This document shows, piece after piece, positions 1,755 through 31,969 of a DNA stretch of 32,625 nt. The DNA is from Oscillospiraceae bacterium. Lineage in GTDB: Bacteria > Bacillota > Clostridia > Oscillospirales > Acutalibacteraceae. How positions within the stretch are numbered: the stretch's first letter is position 1; the number at the start of each line of letters is the position of its first letter. The notes beneath the pieces are model-generated. The model was not told the DNA's origin and searched no databases. It saw nothing but the letters and a program-made list of their open reading frames with translations. The stretch is from contig SVQF01000012.1 in assembly GCA_015065445.1 (NCBI GenBank), positions 1 through 32,625 on the forward strand, in the 5' to 3' direction. The position numbers and the translations under genes were made by a program.

Positions 1755-2627
1755 ATGGAGAAACAACTTATTTTTGAACCGATTTCGCTTAACCATTCCG
1801 AAAAAGCGGAGTCAATACGAAAACGTTTCGGCAACAATCTGTATCTATATACGTTCGCTTCGCTCTATGCGTGGCGTGAAGACGAGCAGTACGAAATTTG
1901 TTTTGCCGACGACGCATTTATAATAAAAAACGGAGCAGTGGGCGACAATGCGTATCTGTTTCCGTGCGGAAGTGACGGCGGCAAAAAAGTGCTGATTGAC
2001 GCTCTTCTTGCATATGAAAAGCCTACGCTTTGTTCATTAACAGACGAAGACAAAGATTTTCTTGAAACATATTATCCCGATATGTTTGAGTTTGAAGAAA
2101 TACGTGACGAGTTTATTTATCTGTTCGACAGAAAAGCACAGGTTGAACTGAAGGGCAAGGATTACAAAAAGCAGCGTCATCAGATTCACATTGGCAAAAA
2201 CTCGGCGGCACAGTGGAGCACGGAACTACTCACGCAGGAAAACACCGACAGAGCTATTGCCATCAATAAAGAATGGGTAAAAAAAACAGGCAAAAACGGA
2301 CTTGCCGACATAGAGGCGGCAAACTGTGCGTTAAAGCATTTTAAAGAACTTTCTATGTGGGGTATGCTGTTTAAGGCAGACGGCGAGGACGTAGCGTATG
2401 TTATGGGCTCGTTCATCACGCCTGAAATATTTGACCTTGCGTTCTGCAAGGTTATTGGCGAAAGGCGTGATTTTTTTGTAAGGTGGAAAGTCTTCAGTTC
2501 CTTGCCGCAGGAGGTCGTAACAATCGACTCTGAAGAGGACTTGGGAATTGAAGGACTACGCATAAACAAACTATCCCGTCACCCTCAGAAACTGATACGA
2601 ATCTGGAAAGGCAATTATAAAATATGA
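1755..2627 (+). CDS. DUF2156 domain protein (phosphatidylglycerol lysyltransferase C-terminal-like, GNAT-like fold)
   Basis: 290 aa; RKRFGNNLYLYTFASLYAWREDEQYEICFADDAFII...EEIRDEFIYLFDRKAQVELKGKDYKKQRHQIH resembles the DUF2156 family pattern. Confidence 0.75.
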   Translation: MEKQLIFEPISLNHSEKAESIRKRFGNNLYLYTFASLYAWREDEQYEICFADDAFIIKNGAVGDNAYLFPCGSDGGKKVLIDALLAYEKPTLCSLTDEDKDFLETYYPDMFEFEEIRDEFIYLFDRKAQVELKGKDYKKQRHQIHIGKNSAAQWSTELLTQENTDRAIAINKEWVKKTGKNGLADIEAANCALKHFKELSMWGMLFKADGEDVAYVMGSFITPEIFDLAFCKVIGERRDFFVRWKVFSSLPQEVVTIDSEEDLGIEGLRINKLSRHPQKLIRIWKGNYKI

Positions 2628-4363
2628 CTGAAACAGCAGCGACAATTAACAGCAGGGCATTTACCGACCGTATGTTCCGTCGGCTTTTTCTGCCTACGCT
2701 TTTATCGGCTATAGGCTGGGCGTTGGGCGATGTTGCTGACGCACTGTTTGTAGGTATTCGCCTTGGCAGAGTCGGACTTGCAACTATGTCGCTTGTAGCA
2801 CCTGTATATATGATTTATAACGTGCTTGACGTCGGCATAGCTATCGGTACATCGGTCAAGTATTCACAGGCACTCGGCAAAGGCGATGCAAAAAAAGGAA
2901 CTGAAACGTTTTCGCAAATGCTTGTTATGGCTGTTGCAGTAAGTGCTGCGGTGTGCGTAATCGGACTTGTCGGTATGCCCTACATACTCAGATTTTTAGG
3001 TGCAGGAAGTGAAGGCGGCGACCTGTGGAACTACACAAAAGAGTATCTGCAGATAATGTTTTTAGGTGCACCGATTACATTTTTATATTTCTTGCTTTAT
3101 TACTGCGTGCGTTGTGACGATAACGAAAAACTTGCAAGTGCAGGCTACACAATCGGATACTTAACAGACGTGGTTGCAAGTGCGGTTTTTATAATGGGAT
3201 TTAAGCTCGACGTACGTGGTGCAATCTACGCAACGGTGCTTGGCAAGGCAGTCGGCGTTATAATTTTCTTATTCCATTTTACAAGAAAGTGGGCGATATT
3301 GCGATTTCGTCTGTTCAGACCCGATTTAAAACTTGTTTTGTCCGTGCTTAAAACGGGAATGGCGTCTTCATTCGGTTACATAGGTCAGTTTATTACGCTG
3401 CTTGTTGTAAACAATATTCTTATGAAAATAGGCGGTTCATCTGCACTGGCACAGCTTAATGTCGTGCAGGATGTATCCTATGTTGCACTGGCTATTTATA
3501 CGGCACTTGGCGACACGGTTCAGCCTCTTAGTGCAACGTTTTATGCCGAACATAACCACGAAGCCACAAAGCGTATTATGATGCTCGGCACAAAAATAGG
3601 CGTTATCAGCGGCGGAGTTATTGCAGCTCTTTTTGCGGTGTTCGCCCCGTCAGTGTGCAGACTTTTCGGCTTAACGGGCAGTACCGTTTCTGAAGGTGCA
3701 TTCGCCGTAAGACTGTTCTGCCTTTCGGTAATTCCCGCAGGCTATAATATAATATGGAGTTCGTGTTTTCAGGCTATAAAAAAAGAGAGAATAGTATTTA
3801 TAATAAATCAAATGCGTACTTTCGTATGCTTTCTGGCATTTGCGTTTGTCCTTTCAAATTTTGAACTCAGATGGTTCTGGTTTGTTTTCCTCGGTGCAGA
3901 AGTTATGACAATAGCAGTCTGGACTCTGCTTGTGCGTCGGCAAAAGTTTGACGTGTCGGACAAGGTGTTCACATATCTGCTCGACGTCAATAATTCGGAC
4001 ATTTCGGATATGCTCAATCAGACAGAGGTGTTCTGTGAAGAACACGACGCAAATCCCAAACAGGTTTACTTCATCACAATGTGTGTTGAAGAAGTCTGCC
4101 AGGCGATAACCGAAAATGCGTTTAACAAAACGGGTGACGAGTATATTCAGTTTACGCTTTGTTTTGAAAACGGCGGTTCTGTAATGCTGCACTTCCGTGA
4201 CAATGCGGTTAACTTTAATCCTTTCGGTATGAAAACCGGTCAGAACTACGACGACCCCGAACAACTTGCATCGCTTGGAATTCAGATGGTAAAAAGCAAG
4301 TCAAAGCAGTTCTTTTACCGTCACTATTCAGGATTTAATACCCTTACTGTGGAGGTAGAATAA
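2624..4363 (+). CDS. MATE-family multidrug/polysaccharide flippase-like transporter with C-terminal HATPase (RsbW-like) domain
   Basis: 579 aa; N-terminal ~440 aa multi-TM MATE pattern (GWALGDVADALFVGIRLGRVGLATMSLVAPVYMIYNVLDVGIAIGTSVKYSQALGKGD); C-terminal ~140 aa soluble with RsbW-like pattern VYFITMCVEEVCQAITENAF...FRDNAVNFNP...LASLGIQMVKSKSKQFFY. ATGA overlap with upstream gene. Confidence 0.85.
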   Translation: MTETAATINSRAFTDRMFRRLFLPTLLSAIGWALGDVADALFVGIRLGRVGLATMSLVAPVYMIYNVLDVGIAIGTSVKYSQALGKGDAKKGTETFSQMLVMAVAVSAAVCVIGLVGMPYILRFLGAGSEGGDLWNYTKEYLQIMFLGAPITFLYFLLYYCVRCDDNEKLASAGYTIGYLTDVVASAVFIMGFKLDVRGAIYATVLGKAVGVIIFLFHFTRKWAILRFRLFRPDLKLVLSVLKTGMASSFGYIGQFITLLVVNNILMKIGGSSALAQLNVVQDVSYVALAIYTALGDTVQPLSATFYAEHNHEATKRIMMLGTKIGVISGGVIAALFAVFAPSVCRLFGLTGSTVSEGAFAVRLFCLSVIPAGYNIIWSSCFQAIKKERIVFIINQMRTFVCFLAFAFVLSNFELRWFWFVFLGAEVMTIAVWTLLVRRQKFDVSDKVFTYLLDVNNSDISDMLNQTEVFCEEHDANPKQVYFITMCVEEVCQAITENAFNKTGDEYIQFTLCFENGGSVMLHFRDNAVNFNPFGMKTGQNYDDPEQLASLGIQMVKSKSKQFFYRHYSGFNTLTVEVE

Positions 4364-5194: not shown

Positions 5195-5210
5195 AGGAAT
5201 GGAGTCTGTT

Positions 5211-7310
5211 ATGAAAAACAAAAAAAGAAAAGTAACTTCACTGCGAAAAAAGTCTGTTACTGTTGTTCTTATTGCAGCTTTAGTGTTAGCTGTTATTGCC
5301 GTTACAATAAGCGGTGCATTTTACAGCTACAATATGTTTGGCCACTACAAACAGCTTGCAGAGCAGCTTGCAGACACTTCGGCGTCGCTTATGAGTGCAG
5401 AAGATATCAAGCACTATTACACCGAGGTAAAGAAGCTGGAGCCTTATGACGACGAAAAATACAACTCCGACGAGGCTTATCGGAAAGAGTATGACGAAAA
5501 GGTAAACGCCATTAAAGACGACAAGTATCAGGAGATGCTGGACATACTCTTTACCTTTGCTGACCAGTCTGAAAACAGAAACGAAATTGAGTATATCTAC
5601 GTCCAGGTTATCGAAGGTAATCAGGTTACTTATATTTTTGACGCAGACCACACCGACGAGGCATATCAGCTTGGCACGGTTGTTCCTGTATCCGACGCCA
5701 ACACCGATAAAGACGGACTCGAAAACGGTATTCCTGCCTTTATTTCAAACAACCCCGACGATGGCTGGCTTTGTACCTGTATGCGACCTATACGTGATTC
5801 AGACGGCAAACCGGTTGCACTTGTAGGCGTTGATATTTCTATGAGTAAGGTTGTAACTGAGGGTATAGCTTATATTGTAACACTTATTATAATTATGATA
5901 ATCGCTGTAGGATTACTCAGTCTGCTCATTCTTCGTGGTACTGATAAGTCTATGGTAAGACCGATTAACAAACTGTCAGAAGCAGCAAGAAGATTTGTTG
6001 AGGATAGGGGTAAAAAGTCAGATGAACATTCTGCTATAACTCAGCTCGACATTCAGACGGGAGACGAACTCGAAACTCTCTGCGACTCGGTTAAACAGAT
6101 GGAACAGGACATTAACGAGTACATTACACACTTAACGGCTGTTACAGCCGAGAAGGAGCGAATCGGTGCCGAACTTTCGCTCGCCACACGGATTCAGGCA
6201 GATATGCTTCCAAATATATTCCCTGCATTTCCTGAAAGAAAAGACCTTGACATATTTGCAAGTATGACTCCTGCAAAAGAGGTCGGCGGCGACTTCTATG
6301 ACTTCTTCCTTGTTGACGATACGCATCTTGCAATGGTTATGGCGGATGTTTCGGGTAAGGGAATTCCTGCAGCACTGTTTATGATGATGAGCAAGATTCT
6401 CATTCAGAACGCAGTTATGAGCGGCAAATCTCCTGCCGACGCACTTATGACGGTAAACAATCAGATTTGTGCAAACAACCGTGAGGAGATGTTTGTTACC
6501 GTATGGCTCGGTATTGTTGATTTGGAAACGGGACTTCTCACCGCATCAAACGCAGGTCACGAAAAACCGATTGTTAAATCTGCTCACGGCGACTTTGAAG
6601 TGTTTAACGATAAGCACGGATTTGTTATAGGCGGTATGGAAGGACTCAAATACCGTAATTACGAAATTCAGCTTGCCAAAGGCTCAAAAGTATTCCTCTA
6701 CACAGACGGTGTGGCAGAAGCAACTGACAATGCAAAAGAACTGTTTGGTATTGACAGAACTATTGACGCACTTAACAAGTGCAAGGACGAAAGTCCTAAG
6801 AAGGTTCTTGAAACCGTTAAAGCGTCCGTTGACGAGTTTGTAGGCGACGCACCGCAGTTTGACGACCTGACTATGTTATGCTTTGCATTTGAAGGAGGTA
6901 AATCCGAATTGACTGTTGAGGCAACGCTCGACAATGTTGCTGTTGCTATGGACTACGTCGGGGAACAAGCGGAAAAACTTCCGTTTTCACAAAAGGCAAT
7001 AAATCAGATTAAAATTGCTGTTGACGAACTTGTTAGCAACGTTGCACGCTATGCTTACGGCGAGCATGAAGAAGGTACGGTCAGCGTGTATGTAAGCAGC
7101 GACGAAAAGGGTATGTCAGTACGTATTACAGACTCGGGTATTCCTTACAACCCGCTCGAAAAAGAAGACCCTGACATATCACTTTCTGCAGATGAAAGAG
7201 GCATTGGCGGACTCGGTATTTTCCTTGTTAAAAAGACAATGGACGAGATTGAATATACGTACAAAGATAACCGGAATATACTGACGTTCAGAAAGAACTT
7301 TGCCGAGTAA
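5211..7310 (+). CDS. membrane-bound SpoIIE-type PP2C serine phosphatase (extracellular sensor + HAMP) with C-terminal RsbW-like HATPase domain
   Basis: Two TMs, HAMP (RPINKLSEAARRFVEDRG), PP2C/SpoIIE motifs EVGGDFYDFF, MADVSGKGIPAALFM, YTDGVAEATD, FDDLTMLCF; then IKIAVDELVSNVARYAYG, VRITDSGIPYNP, RGIGGLGIFLVKKTMD (N, G1, G2 boxes). Start 5211 preferred (GGAG-6nt-ATG); track start 5199. Confidence 0.9.
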   Translation: MKNKKRKVTSLRKKSVTVVLIAALVLAVIAVTISGAFYSYNMFGHYKQLAEQLADTSASLMSAEDIKHYYTEVKKLEPYDDEKYNSDEAYRKEYDEKVNAIKDDKYQEMLDILFTFADQSENRNEIEYIYVQVIEGNQVTYIFDADHTDEAYQLGTVVPVSDANTDKDGLENGIPAFISNNPDDGWLCTCMRPIRDSDGKPVALVGVDISMSKVVTEGIAYIVTLIIIMIIAVGLLSLLILRGTDKSMVRPINKLSEAARRFVEDRGKKSDEHSAITQLDIQTGDELETLCDSVKQMEQDINEYITHLTAVTAEKERIGAELSLATRIQADMLPNIFPAFPERKDLDIFASMTPAKEVGGDFYDFFLVDDTHLAMVMADVSGKGIPAALFMMMSKILIQNAVMSGKSPADALMTVNNQICANNREEMFVTVWLGIVDLETGLLTASNAGHEKPIVKSAHGDFEVFNDKHGFVIGGMEGLKYRNYEIQLAKGSKVFLYTDGVAEATDNAKELFGIDRTIDALNKCKDESPKKVLETVKASVDEFVGDAPQFDDLTMLCFAFEGGKSELTVEATLDNVAVAMDYVGEQAEKLPFSQKAINQIKIAVDELVSNVARYAYGEHEEGTVSVYVSSDEKGMSVRITDSGIPYNPLEKEDPDISLSADERGIGGLGIFLVKKTMDEIEYTYKDNRNILTFRKNFAE

Positions 7311-15278: not shown

Positions 15279-17183
15279 ATGGCTCATATTAAAGACGAAT
15301 ATCAGCTGCCTGTATATCTGTTTCACGACGGGACCAATTACAAGGCATATGAGTTCTTCGGTGTTCATAAAATAAAAGAGAACACCTACGCTTTCAGAGT
15401 TTGGGCTCCAAATGCAGAAGGTGTGAGCGTTGTCGGCGACTTCAACGGCTGGGATGAAAATGCCCACAGATGTCTGCCCGCCTCACCCGGTATATGGGAG
15501 GCTATTATTGAAAACGTCAATGTTTATGACTGCTACAAATACGCAATCAAAACAAAAGACGGCAGAACGCTTATGAAGGCTGACCCGTATGCAGTGCATC
15601 AGGAAACACGCCCTGCAACAGGCTCTAAAGTTTACGAACTTTCAGACTTCAAATGGCACGACAAAAAGTGGCAGGAGGACAAGAGTAAAACAAACATTCT
15701 TGAAAAGCCTGTTAACATTTACGAAATTCACTTCGGTTCGTGGAAACAACACGACGACGGCAACTTCCTCACCTACCGTGAAATGGCGGACGAGCTTGTG
15801 CCGTATGTTAAAGATATGGGTTATACTCATATTGAGATGCTTCCTGTAACAGAGTATCCGTTTGACGGCTCGTGGGGATATCAGGTAACGGGCTACTTTG
15901 CCGCAACTTCACGTTACGGCGTGCCTGAAGATTTGATGTACTTCATAGACCAGTGCCACAAAAACGGCATAGGCGTTATTCTTGACTGGGTACCTGCCCA
16001 CTTCCCTAAAGACGCACACGGACTCTACGAATTTGACGGTCAGTGCTGCTACGAATACGCAGACCTCAAAAAAGGCGAGCACAAGGAATGGGGTACAAGA
16101 GTATTTGACTACTCCAAAAAAGAGGTGCAGTCGTTTCTTATCTCCTCTGCTATGTTCTGGGTTGAAAAGTTCCACTTTGACGGACTCAGAGTTGACGCCG
16201 TTGCGTCCATGCTCTACCTCGACTACGGACGTGAAAACGGACAATGGACGCCAAACAAAAACGGAGGCCGTGAAAATCTTGAGGCAGTTGAATTCTTCCA
16301 GAAGCTGAACACCGCAATGTTCAGAGAGCAGCCCGGTGTTATGATGATTGCCGAAGAGTCAACCGCATGGCCGATGATTACTATGCCGACCGACATCGGC
16401 GGACTCGGTTTCAACTTTAAGTGGAATATGGGCTGGATGAACGATATGCTTCGTTACACATCTATGGACCCGCTTTTCAGAAAAGGCAATCACAACTGCA
16501 TAACCTTCAGTTTCTTCTATGCTTTTTCGGAGAACTTTATTCTGCCGATAAGCCACGATGAAGTTGTTCACGGCAAGGCAAGTCTGCTTAACAAGATGCC
16601 CGGCGACTATGATATGAAGTTTGACGGTATGAGGCTGTTCCTTGCATATATGTTCGCTCACCCGGGCAAAAAACTGCTGTTTATGGGAAGTGAGTTCGGT
16701 CAGTTCATAGAATGGAACTACAAGCAGGGGCTTGACTGGATGCTTCTCGGTTACGACAAGCACGCTCAGCTCAAGGAATTCACCAAGGAACTCAACAAGT
16801 TCTACAAGGCTCACAGCGAACTTTGGGAGATTGATTACAGCTGGGAAGGTTTTCAGTGGATTTCGAGCGAGGACAACTGCAACAGCGTAATCGCTTTCAG
16901 ACGAATCAACAAGAACGGTGACGACATTATTGCCGTATTCAACTGGACGCCGAACAGTTTTGAGAGTTACAAAATCGGCGTACCCGACGCAGGTAAGTAC
17001 AAGGTGGTGCTTGACACATCACTTTCTAAATACGGCGGTGACAAGCCAAGACTTGCAGGTACTTATAAGACTGTTAAAGAGCCTATTCACGGCTTTGACC
17101 AGCACATTGACCTCAAGTTGCACGGTTTGTCCGCAATGTACTTAAAAAAGGTTGAAGAAAAACCGAAAACAAAAAAGAAATAA
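15279..17183 (+). CDS. glgB: 1,4-alpha-glucan branching enzyme (GH13)
   Basis: FRVWAPNAEGVSVVGDFNGWDENAHRC, WGYQVTGYFAATSRYGVPEDLMYFID, DGLRVDAVASMLYLDYGRENGQWTPNKNGGREN, LPISHDEVVHGKASLLNKMPGD. Start 15279 (AAGGAG RBS); track start 15225. Confidence 0.97.
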   Translation: MAHIKDEYQLPVYLFHDGTNYKAYEFFGVHKIKENTYAFRVWAPNAEGVSVVGDFNGWDENAHRCLPASPGIWEAIIENVNVYDCYKYAIKTKDGRTLMKADPYAVHQETRPATGSKVYELSDFKWHDKKWQEDKSKTNILEKPVNIYEIHFGSWKQHDDGNFLTYREMADELVPYVKDMGYTHIEMLPVTEYPFDGSWGYQVTGYFAATSRYGVPEDLMYFIDQCHKNGIGVILDWVPAHFPKDAHGLYEFDGQCCYEYADLKKGEHKEWGTRVFDYSKKEVQSFLISSAMFWVEKFHFDGLRVDAVASMLYLDYGRENGQWTPNKNGGRENLEAVEFFQKLNTAMFREQPGVMMIAEESTAWPMITMPTDIGGLGFNFKWNMGWMNDMLRYTSMDPLFRKGNHNCITFSFFYAFSENFILPISHDEVVHGKASLLNKMPGDYDMKFDGMRLFLAYMFAHPGKKLLFMGSEFGQFIEWNYKQGLDWMLLGYDKHAQLKEFTKELNKFYKAHSELWEIDYSWEGFQWISSEDNCNSVIAFRRINKNGDDIIAVFNWTPNSFESYKIGVPDAGKYKVVLDTSLSKYGGDKPRLAGTYKTVKEPIHGFDQHIDLKLHGLSAMYLKKVEEKPKTKKK

Positions 17184-17208
17184 CTTAAATCTTTTGGAGG
17201 CATAAAGA

Positions 17209-18417
17209 ATGAAACACAAAACAGATGTTGTAGCAATGCTCCTTGCAGGCGGACAGGGCAGCCGTCTGGGAGTTCTTACCAAGAGCATTGCAAAGCCTGC
17301 AGTTCCGTACGGAGGAAATTATCGCATTATTGACTTCCCTCTTTCGAACTGTGTTAACAGCGGTATTTACACCGTAGGCGTTTTAACTCAGTACCAGCCG
17401 CTTGTACTTAACGACTACCTCGGCAACGGTCAGCCGTGGGACCTTGACAGAATCAACGGCGGCGTACACGTACTCTCACCTTACGAGGCTATCGGCGGTG
17501 CTGAGTGGTACAAGGGTACTGCTAACGCAATTTATCAGAACATTGCGTTTATTGAAAAGTATGACCCCGAATATGTTGTAATTCTTTCGGGCGACCATAT
17601 TTACAAGATGAACTATGCAAAGATGATTGACTTCCACAAAAAGAACAATGCAGACTGCACAATCGCAGTGCTTGAAGTTCCTTGGGAAGAGGCGTCACGT
17701 TTTGGTATTCTTGCAACGGACGAGAACAACAAGATTTACGAGTTCGCCGAGAAACCTGCCGAGCCTAAGTCAAACAAGGCGTCTATGGGCGTTTACGTAT
17801 TCTCGTGGGACAAACTCCGCAAGTATCTTATTGAGGATGAGGCAAATCCTGAGTCGTCAAACGACTTTGGTAAAAACATCATTCCTACGATGCTTGCAGA
17901 CAACCAGAGAATGTTTGCGTTCCCGTTCAAGGGCTACTGGAAAGACGTTGGTACTATCGACTCACTCTGGGAGGCTAACCTCGACATTATCAATCCTAAC
18001 GTTGACCTCGACCTGTCAGACAAGACCTGGAAGGTTTACTCACGTAATCCTATGGCTCCGCCGCACTACATCGGCGAGGACGCCGTGGTTGAAAAGTGTT
18101 CAATCGGCGAAGGCTGTGAGATTGACGGCACGGTTGACTACTCCGTAGTTTCCCCCGACGTTATTATTGAAAAGGGTGCAGAGGTTAAGTACTCTGTAAT
18201 TATGCCCGGTGCAAAGATAAAAGAGGGTGCGAAGGTTTACTACTCAATTATCGCCGAGGACGCTGTGATTGAAAAGAACGCACAGGTTGGCGAAATCCCC
18301 GAAAACCTTGAGAACAGCGAGGACTGGGGCATTGCAGTAATTGGCTCAAAGGCAACAATCACCGAGGGCAAGAAGATTGCCCCGAAAGAAATGATAGCAT
18401 CGGGAGAGGAGGTATAA
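17209..18417 (+). CDS. glgC: glucose-1-phosphate adenylyltransferase catalytic subunit
   Basis: [57 protein letters not shown]-like [13 protein letters not shown]-terminal hexapeptide repeats. Confidence 0.97.
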
Positions 18418-18421
18418 GACA

Positions 18422-19546
18422 ATGAACGGAAAGAAAGTTCTTGGATTAATTTTTGCAAATATTCACGAAGAGGCTCTTGATTCTCTTACGGATATGAGAA
18501 CAATGGGTTCTGTACCGTTTTGTTCACGTTACCGTTTAATTGACTTCCCTCTTTCAAATATGGTTGACAGCCAGATTTCAAACGTAGGCGTTGTTACAAA
18601 CTCAAACTTCAACTCGCTTATGGACCACGTTGGCACAGGTAAACCGTGGGATTTGTCAAGAAAAACAGATGGTCTTTATCTTCTGCCGCCGTACTCGCTC
18701 AGCAACACAACAATGTGGGGCAACCGCATTGACGCTATTTACGGCAATATGAATTTCCTCGACCAGTCAAATCAGGAATGGGTGCTTATGAGCGACTGCT
18801 ACAATGTTATGAACATTGACTTTGAAAAGGTATTTGACGCTCACGAAGAAAGCGGTGCGGCTGTTACAATAGTCGGTGTTAAAGGCAAAAAGCCTGCTAA
18901 TATGAGCAGCGTTCTTGTTATGGACAACGTTGCTGAGGACGGTAAGATTAACTCTGCCGTTATCGACCCCGACACCGACGACGAAGTATTCTACTCGTGC
19001 AATATTATTCTTATTAAAAAGTATCTGTTGCAGACACTCGTCACAACTGCTCACTCAAAGAACGAAGTTTCGTTCCAGAGAAGTATTCTGATGAACTGCA
19101 TAAACTCGGGAAAGGCTTATGCCTATGACGCAACAGACTGCTTTATCGGAACAATCGACAGTGTACAGAGCTACTACGACATTTCGATGAGCCTGCTCAA
19201 CAAAGACATAAAGAACAAGCTGTTTGTATCGGACAGACCGATTTACACCAAAGAACGTGACGATATGCCTACTCTTTACGGTCACGACGCAAAGGTTAAG
19301 AACACACTTGTTGCTGACGGCTGCGAAATCAAGGGAACTGTTGAAAACAGTATTCTTTTCAAAGGTGTTAAGGTTGAAGAGGGTGCTGTTGTTAAGAATT
19401 CTATTCTTATGCAGGACACTGTGATAGGCGAAAACACAAAGGTTAACTACATCATCGCCGACAAGAATGTTAACATCAAGTCGGGCGTTGAACTTTCGGG
19501 TGCAGAGAACTTCCCTGTAAGTCTTAGTAAAGATACAAGAATCTGA
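18422..19546 (+). CDS. glgD: glucose-1-phosphate adenylyltransferase regulatory-subunit paralog
   Basis: 374 aa; shorter ADP-Glc-PPase paralog lacking the intact GGxGxRL motif (MNGKKVLGLIFANIHEEALDSLTDMRTMGSVPFCSRYRLIDFPLSNMVDS), directly downstream of glgC. Confidence 0.93.
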   Translation: MNGKKVLGLIFANIHEEALDSLTDMRTMGSVPFCSRYRLIDFPLSNMVDSQISNVGVVTNSNFNSLMDHVGTGKPWDLSRKTDGLYLLPPYSLSNTTMWGNRIDAIYGNMNFLDQSNQEWVLMSDCYNVMNIDFEKVFDAHEESGAAVTIVGVKGKKPANMSSVLVMDNVAEDGKINSAVIDPDTDDEVFYSCNIILIKKYLLQTLVTTAHSKNEVSFQRSILMNCINSGKAYAYDATDCFIGTIDSVQSYYDISMSLLNKDIKNKLFVSDRPIYTKERDDMPTLYGHDAKVKNTLVADGCEIKGTVENSILFKGVKVEEGAVVKNSILMQDTVIGENTKVNYIIADKNVNIKSGVELSGAENFPVSLSKDTRI

Positions 19547-19554
19547 CGATTCGG

Positions 19555-19582
19555 TTTTGAGTTTTGAGCTTTGAGTTTTGAA
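19555..19582. repeat. four tandem imperfect heptamers (TTTTGAG)x2 CTTTGAG TTTTGAA
   Basis: Direct reading of the glgD-glgA gap; the last units also form GAGTTTT-G-AAAACTC (19573-19587). Confidence 0.7.
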
Positions 19583-19620
19583 AACTCTGCTCATAACTCT
19601 CCATAGTAAAGGAGAAAAAT

Positions 19621-21051
19621 ATGAAAGTATTATATGTTGCTTCAGAGGCACTTCCGTTTATGGCGTCCGGTGGACTCGGTGATGTTGCAGGCTCGCTGCC
19701 CGCAGCACTTCGCAAGCGTCTTATAGGCTGCCGTGTAGTAATGCCTCTTTACGACTCAATAAAGCAGGAATATAAAGACCAGATGAAGTTCATTACATCT
19801 ATCTCTGTTCCTGTTTCGTGGAGAAGACAGTACTGCGGTATATTTGAAGCAAAGCACAACGGAGTAATCTATTACTTCCTTGACAATCAGTATTATTTCA
19901 AGCGTGACGGTATTTACGGTCACTACGACGATGCAGAGAGATTTGCTTTCTTTGCCAGAGCCGTACTCGAAATCATCCCACACCTCGGCTGGAAGCCCGA
20001 CATTATTCACTGCAACGACTGGCAGAGTGCGTTGACTCCGCTGTATTATAGCTGCTACTATGCTAATCAGATGGGCTGGGAAAATATCAAGACTGTATTT
20101 ACAATTCACAATATTCAGTACCAGGGCAAGTACGGCGACGAACTTCTCGGCGACGTTCTTGGTATTGCTCCGGAGTTTAACAACCTCATTCTGTATGACG
20201 GACTTGTTAACTTTATGAAGGCGGGTATTGAGTGTGCAAACAGAGTTACAACTGTTTCACCAACATATGCCAAAGAAATTCTTGACCCATGGTTCAGCTA
20301 CGGACTTGACCCCATTCTTAATCAGAGAAGCTGGAAACTCTGCGGTATCTTAAACGGTATTGACACCGATAACTACAACCCCGAAACCGACAAGAATATT
20401 GCCGCTAACTACAATGCAAAGCATTACGCTGAGGAAAAGGCAATTAACAAAAAGGCACTGCAGGAGCAGATGGGTATGGCAGTACGTCCCGACGTTCCGC
20501 TCATTGGTATTGTTAGCCGTCTTGCAGGTCACAAAGGATTTGACCTTATGAAAGAAGTGCTTGAAAAGAGCCTTTGGGAGCGTGACGTTCAGTACGTTGT
20601 TCTTGGCTCCGGCGAGTGGCAGTACGAGAGTTTCTTCAGAGAACTGCACGACAAATATCCCGACAAGGTTGGTATTTGCATAGGCTTTGTTCCCGAACTT
20701 GCACGCAAGATTTACGCAGGTGCAGACCTGTTCTTAATGCCGAGCAAGAGTGAGCCGTGCGGACTTTCGCAGATGGTGGCACTTCGCTACGGCACGCTGC
20801 CGATAGTTCGTGAGACAGGCGGTCTTAAGGATTCTATCACAGACTGCGGCGACGGTGAGGGCAACGGTTTCACCTTCCAGACATACGACGCATACGATAT
20901 GCTCGGTGCAATTTACAGAGGCGTTGACGCTTACTACGGCGACAAAGGCATATGGGACGCACTTGTTAAGAGAGCACTTGAATGCGATATGTCATGGGGC
21001 AAGAGTGCAAACGAGTACATCAAGATGTACAAGGGACTTATGAAAGAATAA
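19621..21051 (+). CDS. glgA: glycogen synthase (ADP-glucose, GT5)
   Basis: MKVLYVASEALPFMASGGLGDVAGSLPAALRK, TIHNIQYQGKYG, GILNGIDTDNYNPETD, LMPSKSEPCGLSQMVALRYGTLPIVRETGGLKDSI. Confidence 0.98.
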   Translation: MKVLYVASEALPFMASGGLGDVAGSLPAALRKRLIGCRVVMPLYDSIKQEYKDQMKFITSISVPVSWRRQYCGIFEAKHNGVIYYFLDNQYYFKRDGIYGHYDDAERFAFFARAVLEIIPHLGWKPDIIHCNDWQSALTPLYYSCYYANQMGWENIKTVFTIHNIQYQGKYGDELLGDVLGIAPEFNNLILYDGLVNFMKAGIECANRVTTVSPTYAKEILDPWFSYGLDPILNQRSWKLCGILNGIDTDNYNPETDKNIAANYNAKHYAEEKAINKKALQEQMGMAVRPDVPLIGIVSRLAGHKGFDLMKEVLEKSLWERDVQYVVLGSGEWQYESFFRELHDKYPDKVGICIGFVPELARKIYAGADLFLMPSKSEPCGLSQMVALRYGTLPIVRETGGLKDSITDCGDGEGNGFTFQTYDAYDMLGAIYRGVDAYYGDKGIWDALVKRALECDMSWGKSANEYIKMYKGLMKE

Positions 21052-21184: not shown

Positions 21185-24100
21185 TTATGAATTGCCGAAT
21201 CCGTCGTCGTAGCTGCCGTCACCATCGCCGCTGCCGTCAACTGCCGTTGCGGAATCCTTGGGTAGTCCGTAGAAGAACGGCTGAGCCCATTCGTTGATAT
21301 TCGGGTTAGGATTCTTATCGTAACCGTACATATAAACATCGTCTACATTTGCCTCAGCATTGTCGTAATCCTTCTGCGGAATCAGGTATACCTTCTTTGA
21401 ACTTGCGATGTGAAGGTCCATCGTACGCCAGTTGTTGAAGCGGTGAACGTTGATATAGAATGTGTTGATATCAACTGTATCGCCGATGATACTGCCGTAG
21501 AAATCGTACGCAAATCCGTCGAGGTCTACATCACCCACAGGAGCGTACATCAACGCACCGATTGAACCTCTGAGTGCGTAGAAGTTTACGTCGCCCTGAT
21601 ACGATGCAAATGCGTTTGGAAGGTCAGTTGCATCTGACGGTGTGGTTTCCGAAGTTTCGGATACAAAGTTGAGGTTTGTGAAGTTAACATCGCCCCGGTT
21701 TGCAATGAAATAAGTAAACCTTATTTTTGCAGTTGTGGCAATATTAATCTCGTTATTGGCGTAAACTACAATCGGTTTGGTGTAAACCTTATGAGTTACT
21801 CCGCCCTCATCAGTGTAAGTACTGTATCTTACGCCTCTTCCATCTGTGTAGTTGCCGTTAGCCTCATGCTCAACACCGTTACTGTCTACATAAAGCCTCT
21901 GCGACCTGTCGTACGAATCAAAGCCCTTGTAGGTTTTGTTTTCGCTGAGTCCGAGGTTAGCCCTCATACTATCCATAAAGCCGTCGAACGAGCTGAAGTC
22001 TGCCTGAAGATTATAGATAGGAGCCCAGCAGTCAAAGTCGTGGCCCATAAATACGAGCGAGCCTTTACGCATCATAGTCTGACCGAATACCATTGCATCG
22101 TAAGTGCCGAAGATTGAGGTATTCATATTCATATTGAGCTGACCGAGCGAGTAAATACTACCCGGCTTTGGCTCGAAGTCCTGCTTAAGGTCGTGGCGGA
22201 TTCTGTTGAATGCTGTAGTAAGCGTTGACCACAGAGTTGCATTCCAGTCATCAGGATATACGAAGTCGGTTTCGTGATAAGTTTCGTTACCGAATACTTC
22301 GGGAAGTACCCAGAGGTCCGAATTATGCTGAAGCGTGATGTGGCTGAGTGCGACTACTACGCCGCCCGATACTGCACGGGTGTAAGCATACTCACGAAGG
22401 TAGCTTGTGTAAGAAAGGATGTTGCCGCCAACGTAGAAGTCGGAGCCGATAGCCTTATCCTTACCGTCGTCACGAAGAACGGATTCTTCCTTGACTGCAA
22501 GCTGGTTGTTCTCACCTTCAGAGTCGATGTTTTCACCCTGATTATCGTTACCTGCACCGGCTGCTGTGCCGTCATTCGGACGCTCATGCTCGTCACTGTT
22601 GTAATTGAACTCGCCGCCTTCTTCGGTTGTACCCTGTTCGTCCTGACGGTTGATTGCGTCTTCAAACTCGTTTAGGTACTGCTGAGCACGTGCTTGTTTA
22701 ACGCCCCTGAAGTAGTTTTCGTCAAACTTGCCGAGTTCGATATAACTTGGCGAGGTCATATTTTTGCCAACGTAACAGGTTACCTGGTCACGAATCTTGA
22801 TGTTTGAAAGCGTCGCCTTCATATTGCCGCCGACATAGATTTCGGAGTAAGCACCGCCGTCAATTGACGTGCTTGCCGTCATATCGCCGCCGACAAACAG
22901 TCTTGCGTCGTGACGCATTGTGATGTAACCGTTTGTAATTGCCTTGGCGTTCATATTTCCGCCGACTCTTACAGTAGTTGACGCATAAATCTTGGTATAA
23001 TTACCGCTCGCCATACTGCCCTGAACATACATATAGCCCGAATTAGCATATACGCCGTTGTTCATAAACATCTCTATTGCTCTGGACATAAGCTGAGAGT
23101 CGGACATACCGCTGTATTCACTGTCGCCTGCCTGCCGTTTTCCACGCAGTTCGTTATACTTTGCTGTAATCCATGCGTTTTCGCTTGCCGTACGGTACTT
23201 TTCAAGTTTAGCCTCGGTTGCGTCCTCTTTGCTTTCGCTCAGCGACTTACCTATTTCGAGGTAGTTTGACGCATCAAAGTCACCGTAGACATACGTTTTG
23301 GTCATATCACGAATCTTGGTGGTATCACGGACGTAAGCGTTACCGTGAATTACAAGCTCGGAGAAGATATTTACATCAAGCAACTGATAAGCAAAGAGTG
23401 AATATTCCTTGCCTGTAAGTCTGCTTGTAAGGTTTTTGATGTTGCCTGCAAGCAGGTCGGTAATACCCGGACCGAATATAGTAGGATTATCCTTATAAGC
23501 CGAATCCTCATCAAGAGCACGGCACTTCCAGTTGAGGTTGCCGTTATCGTCGTAAAGACCGTCGCCCTGACCGCAGATAATCATAGAAACATTCTGCTTG
23601 AGGTAGAGCTTCTGCGGACAGTAGAAACTGCCGCCGATAAGGATATTTGCGTTTGCCTGAACATCAATATCACGTGATGAATCGTACGGAACTGTATCAC
23701 CTGCGAACGATGTTGCACCAATGCCGATACCAAACGCTTTCCAGTTGTTGTCAAGGTCCATACCCTCAACGTTTGCGTAAACGTCGCCGCCCACACGCAT
23801 ATAGCACGACTTGTAGTTATCGCTTGCACCGAATTTGGATTCGTACTGATGGTCCTCGAAGTACGAAATAACGTTACCTGCTGTACCGCCTGTGTTGTAG
23901 TATCTGAACCACATATTAAGTTTGAGCGGACGTCTTGCACGAAGGTCGCCGTCAACCATAAAGATACTGTTTTTACCTGTTGCAACTGCTGCACCGCTGT
24001 AACATTCGCCGCCTATAAATGTGTTTGAATCATTAGGTGCCCAGATTGCTGTCATATAGTATACAGAACCTGTATCGGTACCGTCGTTACCGCCTGTACC

Positions 24101-27100
24101 GTAAACCTTGAAGTCGCCACGGGTGAACATTGTGCCCTGGTTGATTACGGAACCTGCACCATCAGAGGTGCTGACTCTTTCCTTGTTGCCGAGAATCATA
24201 TTTCCACCAACAAAGAGCGTTGCGTCTTTCCAGGTCATTGTGGCACCGTTGTCGTCCGATGTTGAGCCTGCAAGTTTGTACAGACCGTTCATAAGTGCAA
24301 ACGAACGTGTCTTAGAACTCTTAAGACCGAGTGCAGGAATGTTAAGGTTGAAGATGACACCCGTGTCATCACGCATCTTGCCTGCAGCACGCATAGAGCC
24401 GATACTGTTGTTTCTGAGGTCGCCGCCAACGTACATCTGACCGCAGTTGTAAGCAATTTCACCGTACGAGAGTCTGCCGTCGCAACCGAACGAGCAACCC
24501 TGCTTGTTGATGAATCTGTTTGAGTTACACTGGAACTCGCCTGCAAACTGAGCGTTAGCATAAGCGTAGTTCATAAATGCGAAGTCAGAAAGTAAGTCGT
24601 CGTCGTCTGAACCTGAGTAGCCCTCAACGCTGAGACCGTAGTTCATCTTGATGGTGCCTGCGTTGCGGACATAACCCTTAAAGGTTAGTGTACCGCCCTT
24701 GTTACCGTAGTTCCAGGCGAGGAAGGAAGCACCTGTGTCGCCTTCCCATCTACCGTTTTTGAGTGTCCTGCCCTTTGCAGGGTTAGAAGTGGTATCGCTG
24801 TTGTCCGTAATGTACGTTGCACTGTTATCCATCGTGAAACTACCGTAGATGTGCATCTTGCCGTAGTTCCAGATTGTACAACCCATCTTGTAATCCTTCT
24901 GGCAAACAAGACCTGCACCGGTGAGAATATATGCAGCGTTGTCATTTGGAAGCGTTACATTACCGCTTACATATGTGGTACCGTTAGGAATATAGAGCGA
25001 AGTACCTCTGTTGTCGACCATTCTGGCATCATCTTTCTTGTAAAAATAGCCGTTGATGTTAAGGTTTGCGTCGATGAATACGTCGCCGTGACCCTCGTAG
25101 TAACTTGTATAGTTCAGAGTTGACTGCTCAGTGCCGTTACTGTAAATCTTGCCTAAGAATGTATCTGCATTATCTTTAAGAAGATAGAAATCAGTTTCGT
25201 TACCGCTTGAGATATTACCGCTGCCCTTATGAGCATTTGCAATATCTGTACCGCCGTAAGCGTAAAGTCTGCCCCAGTTGGTATAGGTAGCATTGTTCTT
25301 AATAGTTATGAGTCCTGCACAGTAAAGAGTAGCCTTACCGTTTGCAGCCGATGAAAGACCTACCTCGACCCAGTCGCTTGTTATAGGTGAATCAATAACT
25401 GCAACACCTGTATCCTTAATTGCGACTGTCATAAGTTTGTTGTCTCTGCCGAAGTTCTTGTTAGGCGGCATATAGAGCGTGCCTGCAACCTGAAGGTTGT
25501 ACTGAACGTCGTCGTTTGTGTTGTCACCGCAGAATACGATACTGTTGTACGTTGAATGAGTAGTAGTATCAATATTCATCGTGTTGTTAGCCGAGAAGCT
25601 TATGCCGCTGTAACCGTAAAGTTTTGAACCGTCGTTTACGGTAATCTGGCTTGTGCCGAGCTGACCGTCAACAAAGAGCTTTGAGCCGCCTGAAATATCA
25701 ATTGCACCCGAGACTGAAACATTGTCGTCGTGATAACTGCTGTTATCGTCACGTGCAAAGAGCCAAGCCGTGTTTGTAAGCGTGATTGAACTTGCGTTCT
25801 GACGGATGCCTTCGGTTACAAAGATTGTGGAATTGGATGCGTTGATTGCACCTGCTTTGATAAGGTCTTTTCCTACAAGGACTGCTGAGCCGTTTGTTGC
25901 TGTGAACGCACCGCCCGTGCCGCTTGTCTGAATATCAAGCGTACCGCCGCTCGTACAGTTAAGGTTTTCGTTGAAAGTACCTATTTTAACCTTTGACTTA
26001 TTAAGAGTCATTGAGTGACAAGTGATATTACCTGTTACAAGGAGACGTGAATTTGTAAGATTGATAGGTCCGTTTACTACGAGGTCACCGTAAATCTTAA
26101 CATCAACGCTTGAACCTGTGAGGCTTGAAGTTGTGATATTCCTGTTCTGAGTTTCGGAACCGAATACAACATTCGAAAGACCTGACAGTGAGTATGCCTC
26201 GCCTTCACGTGGGTCCTGAACCTTGATAGGTGCAATAATCTGTGCGTTGCTTTCGCCCGTGTTTGTACCCTCTGCGTTAACCTTGTTGCAGACGTTGAAT
26301 ATTGCGTTGCCGCCTGCATCAATTGTCTGTGTAACGGTTGCCTCATTAGGAGCAAACAGGAGAGCGTCGCCCCACATTGCCACTTTGTTAACCTCAAGGT
26401 TAACAGTAGGTGTGGTCTGGTCTTTGTAATTCTCAATTATATTATCGTCAACATATACATAGTGCTTGTCGCCTACGTTAATTGTTGCCTGTGGAGCGGA
26501 GAACTTATCTGCACAGTACGTAAGAGCACTGTACTTAGTAAGTGTGTCTTTATAATATTCGTCCTGAACGTAGTAGTTTGTAAGCGGGTCAGATGCAAGA
26601 CCTGTGCCGTAATCGTATCCGCCTGTGAGCCAAGCACTCTTGAGGTTAGGACAGCTGATTGTTCCGTTTACATAGAGCCTGCCTGCGTTTGCAAACCACG
26701 AATCGTTTTCAGAACCTGCACCGCCGATATAGAGGTTTGTGCCGAGGAACACGTATGAGCCTTGCTGCTGGTTTGCGAACGCCTCAAGTTTATTCTTGAA
26801 GCAGTCTTCACCGGAAGCCGCACCGTTACCGAGAATACTCAGCACAGTATCAGGACAGGCGTTGCCGTCAGGCGAGTACATCCAGATTCGTCTGTTGTTC
26901 TTTGTTGAACTTACGCAGCCACGAACGTAAATTGTTGTGCTGCCCTTGATTTCGAGGATGTTGTTGCCTGCGTTATCGCTGTTGCAGGCAAGAATATCGC
27001 CGAGCACCTGAATGTTGCCGCCGTATGAGTAAAGCACTGACGCAGCGTTTATTGACGCTGTTGAGTACATTGTGCCGTAGTTACGGATTGAACGGAGTTC

Positions 27101-31969: not shown

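Follow-up and report, generated by a model that had tools for sequence, protein, structure and literature searches.

A single giant gene at positions 21185–31969, on the reverse strand of the analyzed window (the whole stretch of 32,625 nucleotides), encodes a real, conserved and unusually large protein. We suggest, with a probability of roughly 0.6, that this protein is a tip-located, filament-initiating minor pilin of the TadG type, in which a solenoid has been expanded into a long stalk. Judged by its sequence, it appears to be a modular form of a minor pilin hitherto known in shorter versions. The initial annotation saw in it a possible surface fibre or adhesin exported by a Tad-like or Sec system. 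The results below support a refined version of that interpretation, in which the giant is specifically the last gene of a tad locus and has the hallmarks of a tip pilin.

The 10.8-kb frame is intact and, as first described, runs without interruption through 3594 aa to its stop codon. It starts with TTG, preceded by AAGGGGG. Based on the Pfam search, the only match in the giant was the Tad family (PF13400) at aa 12–57 (31799–31936; E 6e-7, 30.1 bits against a curated cut-off of 22.3), and 25 of the 27 aligned members also matched it. A single TM-like segment was predicted (19-aa windows starting at aa 11–20). The TadE/G-like N-terminus with one hydrophobic helix, as first proposed, is confirmed. 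The C-terminal sequence is GSGDGDGSYDDGFGNS, with no sorting signal, and a wall anchor (LPXTG, a hydrophobic segment or a second TM) was looked for in the giant and is absent, in agreement with the first reading. The cysteine content is 1.06% versus 1.77% in the neighbouring proteins, and asparagine accounts for 10.6% versus 4.9%. This composition is compatible with an exported repeat protein, although it is no proof of one. A second TadG paralogue was sought in the same genome, and none was found.

The predicted layout of the protein (all parts on the reverse strand) begins with a pilin-like module at aa 1–151 (31517–31969), delimited by PF13400, TM prediction, AlphaFold and the alignment. 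It consists of a basic leader up to Gly12, a hydrophobic α1 (12–58), a helix (64–77) and strands at 90–100, 117–128 and 141–151. With moderate confidence, the model of aa 12–151 looks like a type IV pilin, with a hydrophobic α1 followed by a β-sheet. Next, according to the alignment and AlphaFold, comes a low-confidence region at aa 152–329 (30983–31516), whose sequence is conserved across the genus. It is followed by a helical domain predicted by AlphaFold at aa 330–620 (30110–30982; pLDDT mostly 80–90) and, from the alignment and AlphaFold, a low-confidence, partly helical stretch at aa 621–1023 (28901–30109). The AlphaFold2 model of aa 1–1190 as a whole is weak (mean pLDDT 60.4, pTM 0.39), and its solenoid strands begin at about aa 1024. 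Ribonuclease matches obtained with this model in Foldseek (E 0.05 or worse) were discounted because the N-terminal model is weak.

The remainder is mainly a predicted β-solenoid stalk, aa 1024–3510 (21440–28900), defined by AlphaFold, the rung motif and the alignment. It was modelled at aa 1024–1176 and 2420–3510, while its continuation through aa 1190–2420 is proposed from the rung motif. The model of aa 2420–3594, built on 30 aligned sequences, had a mean pLDDT of 72.5 and a pTM of 0.70, with about 80 strands of 4 residues on average. Each rung is formed by three strands, with a modal length of 20–21 aa in the regular stretches, and helical inserts interrupt the series. Compared with composition shuffles, the rung motif occurred 21 times against 4.7 expected in aa 1000–2200 and 18 times against 3.5 in aa 2200–3250. 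This enrichment, about fourfold to fivefold over aa 1000–3250, was reached by none of the 500 shuffles, whereas aa 1–1000 showed none (3 observed, 1.8 expected). Near the end lies a terminal-rung motif at aa 3475–3496 (21482–21547), YAPVGDVDLDGFAYDFYGSIIG, which is conserved and shared with the short TadG-like proteins of sister genera. The last part, aa 3511–3594 (21188–21439), is an acidic, low-confidence tail lacking LPXTG and a second TM. The acidic end and the solenoid of some 2000 aa proposed at first both held up. The segment-wise structure prediction suggested as a check did return a solenoid. The region boundaries given earlier were close, except that the solenoid extends slightly further than noted, to about aa 3510 (window position ~21440).

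The fold was initially compared with bactofilins or other β-helices. The second part of this comparison stands as a β-solenoid, while a relationship of this protein to bactofilins is not supported, as PF04519 had no Pfam match in the giant. An intracellular, bactofilin-like cytoskeletal polymer is thus very improbable. It could draw on the superficial rung pattern and on weak sub-threshold bactofilin matches found in two short relatives only, but it conflicts with the TM and pilin-type N-terminus and with the tad operon. In the giant, the β-helix family DUF7305 (PF23981) reached E 0.023 and 15.1 bits, under its 27-bit cut-off. The solenoid belonged to no family of Pfam, NCBIfam or PHROGs, the single-member matches being judged as chance, and profiles of both ends of the giant gave no match among PDB sequences. 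Foldseek found nothing in the PDB at E ≤ 0.001 for either model. The nearest, non-significant matches of the C-terminal part were solenoid adhesins (EtpA, Hap, Ag43) and ice-binding proteins, which indicate the fold class only.

Giants of about 2300–3700 aa occur in the genus and in one sister genus; with the C-terminal 1175 aa as a query, they were found in 31 of the 81 genomes of the genus, including the source genome. When 98 genomes were searched with aa 1–1023, homologues turned up in 23 members of the genus besides the source genome and in one genome from another part of the order. Genes with both ends present (those cut by contig ends or by the extracted stretch being omitted) ranged from 2318 to 3671 aa, and the longest open frame had 3679 aa. 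In the 23-member alignment, aa 1–320, 600–800 and 2600–3550 were conserved, and aa ~900–2100 were hypervariable and rich in indels. The C-terminal profile of the giants found no match outside the genus at E ≤ 1e-5 among 392 genomes of the class. In a 393-genome class sample, Tad-domain frames outside the genus did not exceed 1492 aa, the 2622-aa frame of the sister genus having been found later. The class-wide Tad proteins of 0.7–1.5 thousand aa, judged by eye, are apparently of a different, mainly helical type.

The MAG from which the window derives is fragmented into 119 contigs, and tadA of the same genome carries an in-frame TAG (see below). Both would suit a fusion, an assembly artefact or a decaying pseudogene. 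This explanation is refuted by the homologues, since more than 15 independent assemblies contain a single uninterrupted frame of 2300–3700 aa; the artefact check proposed with the first annotation thus found single frames of similar length. Furthermore, between the closest pairs of giants dN/dS was near 0.17–0.19 along the whole length, a value that is approximate because synonymous sites are saturated, and the gene is thus under purifying selection. As separate observations, some divergent giants (L050, L051, L119, L120 and L172) contain CxxC zinc-ribbon-like pairs, an unusual feature in a protein that is exported, and BspA-type leucine-rich repeats were matched (E 7e-24) by a single member of the A1 alignment.

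The tad genes and the prepilin peptidase, which the initial annotation had suggested seeking in the genome, are present and, by synteny, directly upstream of the giant. The monoderm Tad locus has the order tadV, two flp, tadE, cpaB, tadZ, tadA, tadB, tadC, DUF192, a DivIVA-like gene and, last, the giant. In relatives, the giant comes after tadE, cpaB, tadZ, tadA, tadB, tadC and the DivIVA-like gene, with a DUF192 gene usually lying between the last two. In the source genome, the prepilin peptidase (tadV), two Flp pilins, tadE, cpaB, tadZ, tadA, tadB, tadC and DUF192 are on contig C33, which stops inside the DivIVA-like gene, the remainder of which opens the right end of the window. An exact overlap of contigs C33 and C7 was sought and none was found, so the evidence for joining C33 to the giant is synteny, together with the DivIVA-like gene being split in half between the two contigs. 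Among 37 genomes of the genus, a Tad-domain giant was present in 15/15 with tadC and in 0/22 without it (Fisher p 1e-10, indicative only because the genomes are related).

The DivIVA/GpsB-like coiled-coil gene adjoining the giant upstream (32019–32624, reverse strand) is truncated at its 5′ end, where the contig stops. In each of the 26 loci having upstream sequence, it was the gene immediately preceding the giant. PF05103 was matched at E ≤ 0.01 by 16 of the 26 aligned members, mostly under the curated cut-off, and the profile of the protein aligns N-terminally to GpsB and DivIVA structures. As a fixed member of the tad locus in this lineage, it may position the pilus machine at the pole or septum. 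In many of these tad loci, tadC is separated from the DivIVA-like gene by the DUF192 gene (17647–17994 of L035 on contig C33, and relatives). It should be noted that tadA of the source genome contains an in-frame TAG (L035 14663–14665, contig C33), where the relative L036 has the glutamine codon CAG. If translation starts further downstream, a frame of 335 aa retains most of the ATPase domain, and intact copies of tadA are present in relatives. Therefore, the pilus of the source organism itself is perhaps defective or lost in the population, or the consensus is wrong.

On its other side, the giant gene is convergent with glycogen genes (15225–21051, forward strand) for a branching enzyme, two GlgC/GlgD-like proteins and glycogen synthase, which also occur in several relatives. 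The window further encodes a MATE transporter that carries an RsbW-like HATPase at its C-terminus (2624–4363, forward strand; PF13581, E 6.5e-5, below cut-off), which is an unusual fusion, a SpoIIE-type phosphatase fused to HATPase_c_2 (5199–7310, forward strand) and a protein joining a STAS domain to an APH-type kinase (7794–8963, reverse strand). Together, these three predicted fusions resemble a partner-switching module.

When sister genera of the family were searched with the N-terminal profile, the open frames detected measured 163 to 659 aa, apart from the 2622-aa giant that one genus has at the same locus. Complete short forms were obtained from the family (seven, 359–649 aa) and from another family of the order (one), spanning 353–649 aa together. 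They carry Tad PF13400 and DUF7305-like β-helix matches (DUF7305 15.1–29.7 bits, one above the 27-bit cut-off), so that the short-solenoid TadG-like proteins first described as familiar do exist in these genera. Most of the family's short forms are located after DUF192 and DivIVA-like genes, as is the giant. In addition, an HMM of aa 3380–3545 of the giants, the last ~166 residues of the solenoid, matched all eight short forms (E 2e-12 to 2e-3) and none of 180 shuffles. The short proteins share with the giant the N-terminal module, the lack of Glu5 and the terminal rung motif, while their solenoid has only a few hundred residues; the giant as a protein is ~5–10 times longer, and its solenoid is barely recognized by DUF7305. 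From the domain matches, the locus and the HMM matches, the giant would be an inflated short solenoid-bearing TadG-like minor pilin. Thus, a short pilus-tip protein seems to have been lengthened five- to tenfold in evolution.

If aa 1024–3510 are coaxial with their inserts, the solenoid would have an estimated ~60–95 rungs and, at 4.8 Å per rung, a length of roughly 30–45 nm. This is comparable to the thickness of a Gram-positive wall, and a secretin is not expected in a monoderm. The giant could accordingly belong to the machine itself, as a guide or alignment complex that spans the thick wall, helps the pilus through it and replaces the periplasmic and outer-membrane parts of diderms. In addition, TadG is listed as a component of the inner-membrane subcomplex and not as a pilin in PMC10191384, which counts against a position at the tip. 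We nevertheless consider a guide of this kind quite unlikely, as the same locus in sister genera has versions of 359–649 aa, which would hardly span a wall, and stalk length varies widely between species.

The assignment of the giant to the pilus tip is based on the signature of initiating pilins. Hydrophobic residue 5, large size and a 3′-end gene position were proposed as marks of the first filament subunit (PMC5207764), and a subunit lacking Glu5 caps tip complexes (PMC10191384). The giant lacks Glu at +5 after the leader Gly, and it is the largest pilin and the last gene of the cluster. The residue at +5 was non-Glu in 23/23 aligned giants, and short relatives also lack Glu5, whereas this Glu is present in TadE and in the two Flps encoded at the giant's locus. 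Gly12, which ends the class III leader, is nearly invariant in the alignment. A GspK-type label would apply by signature only, and membership is not claimed: no PDB sequence was matched by profile, and GspK was not among the Foldseek matches listed. Tad systems were modelled with TadE/F/G-type tips bearing modular ends (PMC12075869, PMC12607857). CpaL has been modelled as a pilin at the Tad tip, and its orthologue TadG was detected in pilus preparations (PMC12607857). For the solenoid pilin ComZ, it was argued from the structure that the tip is the only position it can take (PMC6561018). The absence of Glu5, the size, the last-gene position and these published models therefore favour a tip pilin. 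The TAG in tadA of the source genome, the weak N-terminal model and the lack of a PDB match at E ≤ 0.001 speak against it.

Alternatively, the giant could be a surface stalk or adhesin anchored in the membrane, its N-terminal helix being kept there outside the pilus and the gene merely lying in the tad operon. The single N-terminal TM, which may stay unprocessed, and the nearest though non-significant fold matches to EtpA, Hap and Ag43 would agree with it. However, the perfect co-occurrence with tadC, the fixed place in the locus, the pilin-like N-terminal model and the conserved leader Gly make it rather unlikely.

Based on the tip pilin assignment, we suggest the following pathway. The giant would be inserted N-in/C-out via SRP/Sec, and the prepilin peptidase TadV from the same locus may cleave it after Gly12. 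An α1 without Glu5 would suit the giant only as the first (tip) subunit, with TadE beneath it and Flp pilins added below by TadA/B/C. The grafted solenoid would act as a rigid stalk, carrying the conserved last ~900 residues far past the wall for contact or adhesion. Its length may be tuned species by species through rung gain or loss. The tip function, whether adhesion, surface sensing or another, is best sought in the conserved C-terminal ~900 aa.

No giant Tad solenoid protein was found described in the open-access literature. KilN/TadG tip pilins (Myxococcus and others) and CpaL (Caulobacter) are, like the giant, Tad minor pilins with a large C-terminal module, proposed as a cap; in the accessible text of PMC12075869 and PMC12607857, these modules have other folds (vWA in CpaL), and a long solenoid is not described among them. 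ComZ of Thermus thermophilus (PMC6561018) is also a β-solenoid pilin argued for the tip, but its length is about 554 aa, a solenoid of ~380 aa being inserted in the pilin fold, and it binds DNA as part of a competence pilus. Its structure (6qvi) was a non-significant Foldseek match to the giant (E 3.4). Modular type IV pilins, such as PilB/PilC of S. sanguinis, likewise have a functional module grafted on a pilin. The most extreme named case in the survey PMC8179133 has 860 residues, compared with 2300–3700 aa in the giants, and Tad proteins may be under-sampled in that survey since it used IPR012902. Fibrillar adhesins, in the accessible part of PMC9210967, resemble the proposed giant in projecting an adhesive part on a long stalk. 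They differ in having recognized stalk and adhesive domains; the giant has no recognized adhesive domain, and its anchoring would be through the pilin helix.

The giants bear on how monoderm Tad pili cross the wall and on what their tips touch. As a tentative proposal, which we hold at less than even odds, a type IV filament tip subunit would have grown into a single rigid solenoid "lance" of ~30–45 nm, the largest pilin-type subunit described, in which rung gain and loss set the length for each species while the ends are constrained, and which perhaps also serves as a wall-spanning device for the emergence of a monoderm Tad pilus. The giants extend the modular-pilin concept several-fold past the 860-residue case. 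Furthermore, they form with the short relatives a natural length series of one protein at one locus, from about 350 to 3680 aa, so that the relation of stalk length to function is directly testable.
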